DNA from: a virus
Length of the DNA: 32,138 bases
Virus record (IMG/VR): IMGVR_UViG_3300025896_000114
Location: 1-32,138 of that record
Strand: one strand, 5' to 3'
A model generated the notes under the pieces. The model saw nothing but the letters and a program-made list of their open reading frames with translations, was not told the DNA's origin and did no database searches. A program made the position numbers and the translations under genes. Shown here one piece after another: positions 12,921-17,623 of the stretch. Each line of letters begins with the position of its first letter. The stretch's first letter is position 1.

Positions 12921-13127
12921 GTTACCGCTTGTTACCAATTCTGTTACCGCCTAAGCCTTTGATCTATCTAATCTATTTGACAAAAGTAACGAAGTAACAA
13001 AGTAACGGGCTTTTCCCTATACGCGCGCGCGCGCGCGCGCATGTGTGAGAGGAGGTCTGTTACTTTGTTACTCTGTTACCGCGTTGATCTATAACGACAA
13101 TTCCGTAACGGCCGGTAACAAAGTAAC
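12921..13127. repeat. GTTAC/GTAAC iteron array around a Z-DNA-prone tract; putative replication origin
   Basis: Twelve copies of a pentamer occur as four triplets of alternating orientation: GTTAC at 12921, 12931, 12943; GTAAC at 12986, 12994, 13002; GTTAC at 13059, 13067, 13075; GTAAC at 13105, 13115, 13123. A 16-base direct repeat GTAACAAAGTAACGGG starts at 12994 and 13115, and its 13-base core occurs inverted at 13059. Between triplets two and three lies a 30-base alternating pyrimidine-purine run (13018-13047), mostly CG repeats. AT-rich bases (12951-12985) flank it. The last triplet is inside the helicase 3' end. Position after the helicase/primase genes suggests an origin; this is inference. 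Confidence 0.75.
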
Positions 13128-16042: not shown

Positions 16043-16611
16043 GCACCACCCGCGGATGACTGGTAGCGGACACTCTGCCCACGTTTGCCCGCGCGACGGT
16101 TACGGCCCAGCAAACTGAGCGCGCCGCCGGTCGAGCGCACGTACCCTAGGGCACTGGCAACCTGCTCACGCACGACAACATCGCCTTCCGCGACCGCCTT
16201 AAACATGGCGCCCGTGGCTTCCGCGTCGACCCCGGCCAGATCACAGACTTCGCGAAAGTCTCGCGTCCCGATCCAGCTTAACCACTTGTCCTGCGCGCGC
16301 ACCGCTTCGATGCAGTTCGGTTTCAGCAGGTCCCGCAACGCCTGCAGCAAGACCTCCTGCCACAGGCTCTGGCTTCGCGCCGCTTCGACGGCAGGCGCAA
16401 GCGCAGGATCCTCTTGTTCCGCCAGCAGCGCCCACCCGCGCGCGTCTTCGTCCCCGGTCTCGAGCCTGCCGGCCCCTTGGCTGGGGCCGGCAGGGTTTCT
16501 TGCAGTCAGTCGCTGCGGGGGGAATTCTGATTCAGCCTCGGGATCGGCGTGGAGCGCCTTCATCCGCGCGCTTACCGCCGCGGCCGCCGGGCTAAGCCGC
16601 TTCTTCGGCAC
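16039..16611 (-). CDS. Early phage protein of unknown function
   Basis: The product is 190 aa. A disordered, proline-rich N-terminal third precedes a helical C-terminal half containing WLSWIGTRDFREVCDLAGVDAE, a pattern often seen in early genes preceding primases of alphaproteobacterial phages (recalled). The basic end (RNRRAGKRGQSVRYQ) suggests nucleic-acid contact. GTG at 16611 is chosen, with GGAG 7 bases upstream; it overlaps the Cro-like gene by 20 bases. It lies second in the leftward early operon, before primase and helicase, suggesting a replication or regulatory accessory. Confidence 0.6.
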   Translation of the reverse strand: MPKKRLSPAAAAVSARMKALHADPEAESEFPPQRLTARNPAGPSQGAGRLETGDEDARGWALLAEQEDPALAPAVEAARSQSLWQEVLLQALRDLLKPNCIEAVRAQDKWLSWIGTRDFREVCDLAGVDAEATGAMFKAVAEGDVVVREQVASALGYVRSTGGALSLLGRNRRAGKRGQSVRYQSSAGGA

Positions 16612-16897
16612 AGGCCTGCTCCATACGCTCAGAGGCCTCGCCTACAAACGGGGATTGTACAGGCCCAGCCGCGGGCGCACGCTCGTCCTGCGGGAAGAAG
16701 TCCTCCGCAGTAAGCGGGACGCCAAGAACGGTCGCGCGGTTGAGCAGAAAGCCGATGCCCGATGCAGGAATGCGCCTCCGCTGCCGCCACATCGCCAGCC
16801 GCGCCGGGCTCACGCCCAACTCGCGTGCCACTGCGGCGTCAGTGCTGACGTTGAGGCGGGACTTGAAGCGCTGAAGAACCGTATCTGGGGACATCAT
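16592..16897 (-). CDS. Cro/CI-type helix-turn-helix regulator, first gene of the leftward early operon
   Basis: The product is 101 aa from the first of two tandem ATG codons. The N-terminal half is a CI-repressor-type HTH: VLQRFKSRLNVSTDAAVARELGVSPARLAMWRQRRRIP, then a GVPLTAEDFF end. The C-terminal 35 residues look disordered. The gene is divergent from the CI-like gene, as expected of a Cro. An alternative start at 16939 (115 aa) has GGAG 7 bases upstream, but it would lie upstream of the -35. The operator-overlapped promoter at 16934-16906 would give an mRNA starting within about 3 bases of the ATGATG, that is, a leaderless message. The start therefore remains open. Confidence 0.75.
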   Translation of the reverse strand: MMSPDTVLQRFKSRLNVSTDAAVARELGVSPARLAMWRQRRRIPASGIGFLLNRATVLGVPLTAEDFFPQDERAPAAGPVQSPFVGEASERMEQACAEEAA

Positions 16898-16905
16898 GGC
16901 CGCAG

Positions 16906-16934
16906 AGGCTACTAACACCTCGTTAGTCACGCAA
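16906..16934 (-). promoter_or_regulatory. Leftward early promoter with operator O1
   Basis: On the minus strand TTGCGT (16934-16929) and TAGCCT (16911-16906) are 17 bases apart. The palindrome ACTAAC-N5-GTTAGT (16911-16927) fills the spacer. The core TAAC-N5-GTTA recurs in the same relative place in the promoter at 18841. The -10 is a weak match. This would be the lytic promoter for the Cro-like, primase and helicase genes, shut by the CI-like repressor. Confidence 0.6.
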
Positions 16935-16984
16935 GACATTTTTTTGCTCCGGCCGGCCGGCGCGACCCTGCATACCCGCGCGCT

Positions 16985-17623
16985 ATGAGGCAGCCAACGA
17001 CCGCTGAGCGTTTGCGTGCTATCCGCGACCGCCTCGGAATCGAGAACGCCGCGGATCTGGCGCGCGCAATCGGCGTAGAGCCAGCAACCTATCGCCAGTG
17101 GGAGAACCCGAAGCGCGCCAAAAGCCGGCCGTCGCTCGATCTGGATCTAGTTGAGCAGCTGGCCGCGCTCGCTGTGAATCGCGGCCTAGACGTAGCGCCG
17201 GTCTATGCGCTGGCCGGCTACGACGTGCGCGGACCTGTCGGCCCACGCGGGCTAGCTGACTACGGCGCCGTCCGCTACCTGCCGCCGGAGCGCTCGCCGC
17301 TGCAAGCCGCGATTGCCGCCTGGCAGGCCGCAGGACAGAATCGCGAGCCATGGGTGATGCGCGATGCCGGCCTGTTTCTGGCGGGCGTCTTGCCCGGCGA
17401 TGTCGCCATCGTCGATCTCGGCCGCCCGCCTCCGGCCGGCGCGATCGTGCTCGCCTCGATCGACGGCGCGCACGGCTGGCACCGCTCGGTGCTCAGGCTC
17501 TATCGCCCGCCTTATTTGGTGGCACAGACGGCCGACGCAAGCCTGCTCACCCCGGTGTTGATCGATGAGGCGACGGTGATCGTCCGCGGCCCGGTCATCG
17601 CCGTACTGCGCGAACTGGGGTGA
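16985..17623 (+). CDS. CI-like phage repressor with degenerate S24-type C-terminal domain
   Basis: The product is 212 aa. The N-terminal HTH spans residues about 8-50 (LRAIRDRLGIENAADLARAIGVEPATYRQWE). The C-terminal domain has the LexA/CI fold pattern LFLAGVLPGDVAIVDL (130-145), AGAIVLASIDG (151-161) and RSVLRLY (167-173). The residues that should be the catalytic Ser and Lys are L130 and L170, so self-cleavage is not expected. No ribosome site precedes the ATG, suggesting a leaderless or maintenance-type transcript. It is divergent from the Cro-like gene with O1 in between. It should maintain lysogeny by binding TAAC-N5-GTTA sites. Confidence 0.82.
   Translation: MRQPTTAERLRAIRDRLGIENAADLARAIGVEPATYRQWENPKRAKSRPSLDLDLVEQLAALAVNRGLDVAPVYALAGYDVRGPVGPRGLADYGAVRYLPPERSPLQAAIAAWQAAGQNREPWVMRDAGLFLAGVLPGDVAIVDLGRPPPAGAIVLASIDGAHGWHRSVLRLYRPPYLVAQTADASLLTPVLIDEATVIVRGPVIAVLRELG

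Follow-up and report, generated by a model that had tools for sequence, protein, structure and literature searches.

A mirrored pentamer array at the end of a phage D5/SF3-type helicase gene: a probable replication origin with a conserved geometry and a changing recognition word

Results

Gene neighbourhood and layout of the array

The DNA analysed, hereafter the window, is a virus record from IMG/VR, 32,138 bases long. On its minus strand the order is Toprim primase, helicase, pentamer array, putative terminase small subunit (TerS), putative terminase large subunit (TerL) and portal protein. The primase P0002 (14948–16042, minus strand) matched Toprim_3, DUF7146 and a DNA primase PHROG. P0001 (13089–14951, minus strand) was assigned as a D5/SF3-type AAA+ helicase with a C-terminal winged-helix-like domain on the basis of an AF2 model (mean pLDDT 86.5) and its fold matches, namely ASFV PrimPol, SCCmec Cch (5dgk), the C-terminal region of NrS-1 and poxvirus D5/E5; superposition on 5dgk gave TM scores of 0.45/0.52 at a sequence identity of about 11%. 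We propose this helicase as the initiator. The putative TerS P0003 (12206–12847, minus strand) was named by its position, its sole match being a PHROG of unknown function, and no helix-turn-helix (HTH) was recognised in it. The putative TerL P0006 (10373–12025, minus strand) was assigned from distant homology and position; an iterated profile links it to a protein, L040, that matches Terminase_3. Further along, at 16592–17623, divergent open reading frames (ORFs) resemble a Cro/CI-type lysogeny switch, an ORF layout consistent with a temperate phage.

The array occupies 207 bp (12921–13127) and consists of 12 GTTAC/GTAAC pentamers arranged as four triplets of alternating orientation around a tract of alternating purines and pyrimidines. 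All twelve sites were found exactly where the original prediction had placed them: on the plus strand at 12921, 12931 and 12943 (outer triplet on the TerS side, 12921–12947), on the minus strand at 12986, 12994 and 13002 (inner triplet with 8-bp steps, 12986–13006), on the plus strand at 13059, 13067 and 13075 (the mirrored inner triplet, likewise with 8-bp steps, 13059–13079), and on the minus strand at 13105, 13115 and 13123 (outer triplet on the helicase side, 13105–13127). The direct repeat described at 12994 and 13115, with its inversion at 13059, is present, and the alternating run, a Z-DNA-prone sequence, spans precisely 13018–13047 (30 nt) without a break. When 300 windows were Markov-simulated from the dinucleotide composition of the window and the densest 207 bp of each was counted, the maximum was 3 GTTAC/GTAAC pentamers, versus 12 in the array. 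An AT-rich spacer (12948–12985) separates the outer from the inner triplet on the TerS side and contains, on the minus strand at 12952–12964, the IHF-like site GATCAAAGGCTTA, which has one mismatch to WATCAANNNNTTR; a weaker IHF-like site with two mismatches lies at 13077–13089, also on the minus strand. An Rfam search returned no match, and GC skew showed no clear switch and gave no origin signal.

The array had been described as lying directly after the helicase gene. The adjacency holds, but the array does not lie strictly after the gene, since the helicase ORF stops inside it; for this reason the outer triplet at 13105–13127 falls within the last helicase codons. At the other end, the putative terS gene, which the earlier description did not mention, starts 74 bp from the array, and it is this proximity that raises the alternative of a packaging site.

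Arrays behind related helicases

Two collections of relatives were assembled. For the motif-based one, viral contigs were scanned for three GTTAC pentamers at 8-bp steps, which returned at least 120 loci, many of them with mirrored arrays and recurring spacings. The loci are flanked by helicases of several families and, on the opposite side, by terminase genes. The same scan with the reversed control pentamer CATTG gave a count that is likewise a lower bound among the matches listed, and the loci so selected also contain clusters of their own pentamer. Because the control behaves alike, raw triplet counts in viral contigs are no evidence; controls within each locus are.

The protein-based collection comprised 80 loci found by helicase alignment, which avoids selecting for GTTAC, and 81 with the window. 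The region after each helicase gene was scored for a pentamer array and compared with equal-sized regions upstream of the gene, the threshold being the best score of 70 such control regions. An array scoring below this threshold followed the gene in 69 of the 81 loci; the remaining 12 had none below it. About 13 of the 80 loci carry GTTAC arrays, and in almost all an array of one pentamer or another follows the helicase gene, the words including GTTAG, GTTCC, GTAGC, GTTGC and others. A further set of prophage or contig loci from GTDB, mostly alphaproteobacterial and, it appears, sharing some prophages with the viral set, gave scores below −9 in 32 of 33 cases, with a similar layout. Most relatives thus retain the triplet geometry and the alternating tract, whose conservation had been put forward as a check on the prediction, but differ in the pentamer word. 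Near the terS genes of HTVC027P, DSL-LC04, 023Pt and HTVC023P, no array of this geometry was found. The Pelagibacter phage HTVC027P carries a different kind of array, thirteen CAAGC units mostly at 7-bp steps (L244, 5136–5261), placed 5′ of terS at a distance of several hundred bases.

Across 70 arrays, the spacings between sites peak at 8, 11–12 and 41–45 bp despite the differing pentamers. The plan of a half-array is outer sites 11–12 bp apart, a gap of 41–45 bp and two or three inner sites 8–9 bp apart; a centre of 45–123 bp follows, variable in length and sequence among relatives, and then the mirror image of the half-array. Of the 70 arrays, 64 have a central alternating purine-pyrimidine run that exceeds the length seen in 95% of random windows (the median being 19, versus 6 in random windows). 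AT content peaks between the inner and outer sites, at the same place as the spacer in the window, and mean AT is 0.25 at the midpoint. IHF-like sites with at most one mismatch occur in 42% of the inner-outer gaps, compared with 3.6% of shuffled gaps and 1% elsewhere, an enrichment which suggests that IHF may bind there.

A second sub-architecture was observed in arrays built from AGAAC/GGAAC (L296, L298, L310, L319, L312, L320 and similar loci): compared with the GTTAC class, the motif has the opposite orientation, most inner sites come as doublets, and the centre measures close to 79 bp.

Arrays outside the terminase context

A second, different helicase family, the DUF927/Cch-like proteins, of which the member tested has Cch HTH_56, provided loci of another kind. 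In about 47 of 53 of these, an array built on the same plan lies 4–240 bp after the gene. A scan of ten neighbouring downstream genes of DUF927 loci gave no terminase match; the genes scanned include helicases, PAPS reductase and dUTPase. Among phage isolates, the array stands at the end of the helicase gene in Bdellovibrio phage phi1422, 7.3 kb from terS, and in Synechococcus phage S-H1, 1.3 kb from terS; in Acjo_20 it lies 5′ of the helicase gene.

Plasmids were also found to carry arrays; their gene tables are incomplete, and the absence of a terminase gene from them is to be read within that limit. With no terminase gene listed, the Arsenophonus plasmid paNv_UK14 (8.3 kb) and an Enterobacter plasmid of 6.9 kb each have an array directly after the helicase gene, and Arsenophonus paNv_CAN18 has the helicase and an array. 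The AT-rich arrays of paNv_UK14 and paNv_CAN18 score only modestly beyond their own controls. Since a Rop-family protein is also listed for the Enterobacter plasmid, this plasmid may hold a second replicon. In Arsenophonus paPv13, paPv15 and paNv_CAN17 the array is present and terS is listed elsewhere on the plasmid. Five Arsenophonus plasmids with helicase plus array (L519, L520, L529, L532 and L533) are 8–12 kb in size, several of them linear; most of these have a protelomerase and some a lone terS, and they resemble N15-like minimal replicons. Eubacterium p1_EUCAMar and Atlantibacter pLH84-a-B were set aside as array plasmids for their weak or different repeats, and a candidate array on a Geobacillus plasmid was rejected when control regions scored equally high.

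Helicase or TerS as the reader of the pentamer

In most Hel14 loci the array lies 20–140 bp 5′ of the putative terS. Insertions part the helicase from the array in about 12 loci, where terS remains nearby; another 11 or so have the array close to the helicase, with terS 0.5–1.2 kb away. The pentamer is often common to pairs of loci whose TerS are divergent and whose helicase C-termini are similar, as in L309/L320 (TerS 27%, C-terminus 63% identical), and in several pairs with similar TerS and less similar C-termini, such as L329/L333, it is not shared. Motif sharing was correlated with the identity of the helicase C-terminus after controlling for the helicase core, TerS and TerL (partial r 0.138, p 0.001), versus r 0.005 (p 0.40) for TerS as a whole. 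By residue windows, helicase 570–593 was strongest (partial r 0.149) with TerS 121–144 nearly equal (0.129), and this covariation did not cleanly separate the two proteins. Since the TerS window is so close behind, the covariation is support for reading by the helicase and not proof of it: pentamer identity appears to track the helicase C-terminal domain rather than TerS as a whole.

A group of phages defined by TerS cluster c0 (L336, L391, L402 and others) has half-arrays 20–280 bp 5′ of terS, laid out as a triplet, a gap of 31–47 bp, a pair and a single site, in the words GTAAC, ACCGC, GCTAC or ATTAC. Their contigs, which may be incomplete, gave no match to DnaB_C, DUF5906 or Toprim_3, and no D5 helicase was recognised; the one phage of this group that was examined has an AEP primase, a UvrD-like helicase and PolA.

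Discussion

The array is most likely the phage replication origin of the neighbouring self-loading D5/SF3-type helicase, a reading to which we give a probability of roughly 0.8. The original prediction of an origin bound by the adjacent replication proteins draws support from the geometry kept among relatives and from the presence of array and helicase together in plasmids that list no terminase.

A terminase-bound cos site was our first idea from the GTTAC-selected loci, and packaging is still the alternative that deserves most attention. In a cos or pac site of this kind, TerS would bind the pentamers, IHF would bend the DNA as in lambda cosB, and the centre would be cut. Lambda cosB, which lies beside terS, has the order R3-I1-R2-R1, with an IHF site set among the repeats. 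Compared by description rather than alignment, the phage array likewise has repeats with an IHF-like site between the site groups and lies next to terS, with which it stays in the loci carrying inserts; the covariation of TerS 121–144 with the motif points the same way. It differs from cosB in being mirror-symmetric around an alternating centre that varies in length and sequence, and in occurring where no terminase gene is listed. The finding of the same array after the helicase gene in the DUF927 family, in plasmids without a listed terminase and in isolates with a distant terS weakened the packaging explanation, as did the failure of the motif to follow TerS as a whole and the lack of a recognised HTH in the TerS of the window. 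The half-arrays 5′ of terS in the TerS-c0 phages keep it alive; we regard it as weakened and unlikely. Less probable still is a site at which a phage or host regulator would control transcription of the late operon (terminase and head). The position of the array at the boundary of replication and structural genes in Hel14 phages would suit such a role, but the genes scanned after DUF927 arrays include helicases, PAPS reductase and dUTPase, the Acjo_20 array precedes the helicase gene and the motif tracks the helicase C-terminus. That the repeats arose as a by-product of repeat expansion, or belong to a coding repeat, might be suggested by the outer triplet inside the helicase 3′ end; steps of 8 bp are no codon multiple, and the same geometry recurs with different pentamers in dozens of loci, so that the comparative data already contradict this explanation and we give it next to no weight.

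For the origin, the closest parallels are found in phage satellites and SCC elements. PICI origins lie 3′ of rep and have an AT-rich region with an iteron set on each side; the rep-ori segment of the Gram-negative PICI EcCICFT073 replicates in E. coli (PMC6092414). The phage array shares with SaPI/PICI Rep-ori its place immediately 3′ of the helicase/Rep gene, whose 3′ end it overlaps in the window, and the arrangement of short, element-specific iterons as two sets, one on either side of a centre; P0001 has a D5/SF3-like helicase fold, as indicated by the Cch and D5-type matches, and a predicted C-terminal DNA-binding domain, as in SaPI/PICI Rep. Unlike in those origins, its sites number up to 12 or more and fall into four groups, and its centre, of alternating purines and pyrimidines, is GC-rich where theirs is AT-rich. 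In the SaPI-like element PT1028, an array 3′ of the DUF927 Rep gene has steps of 9–11 bp, gaps of 41–45 bp and a centre of 95–103 bp, and thus the spacing plan of the phage arrays; an IHF-like sequence, TATCAATGGTTTG, was read there by eye. In SCCmec, the AAGTG iterons bound by the C-terminal domain of Cch2 lie immediately 3′ of the gene that encodes it (PMC7581432). Five-nucleotide iterons directly downstream of the helicase gene are thus common to SCCmec Cch2/Cch and the phage, with three iterons for Cch2 versus twelve in the phage array. Geminivirus iterons are described as words of 5–6 nt, lineage-specific and matched to the cognate Rep (PMC12548392); to that extent they are like the phage pentamers, although geminiviruses use a rolling-circle Rep and are an unrelated system. 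The best reading of these comparisons is that the array would be a fuller phage variant of the SaPI/PICI/SCC-type origin, "variant" because the AT-rich centre, a defining PICI feature, is missing. In the papers searched there was no earlier description of GTTAC or pentamer phage origins.

A mechanism can be proposed from these features. The D5/SF3-type helicase would act as the initiator, its C-terminal winged-helix-like domain binding the pentamers. Between the outer and inner triplets the DNA would be bent by IHF or a similar protein, folding each half of the array into a single complex. Two helicase rings might then be loaded in opposite directions about the alternating centre; the YR steps of this centre are flexible and may favour wrapping or opening. 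Both the site of melting and the direction of replication are inferred in this scheme.

We lean towards the broader view that a single origin architecture is common to tailed phages, plasmids and phage satellites, in which a fixed geometry is combined with an interchangeable five-letter word read by the helicase C-terminal domain, and specificity would evolve in a code-like manner that can be read from sequence. The origins of most uncultivated phages are unknown, and the constant geometry with its changing pentamer lets origins be found by sequence alone, and the relatives offer helicase domains already paired in nature with their recognition words. The origin plan has been described as peculiar to PICIs; the arrays of phages and small plasmids suggest that it occurs more widely, and that phages, satellites and small plasmids are thereby linked through replication.
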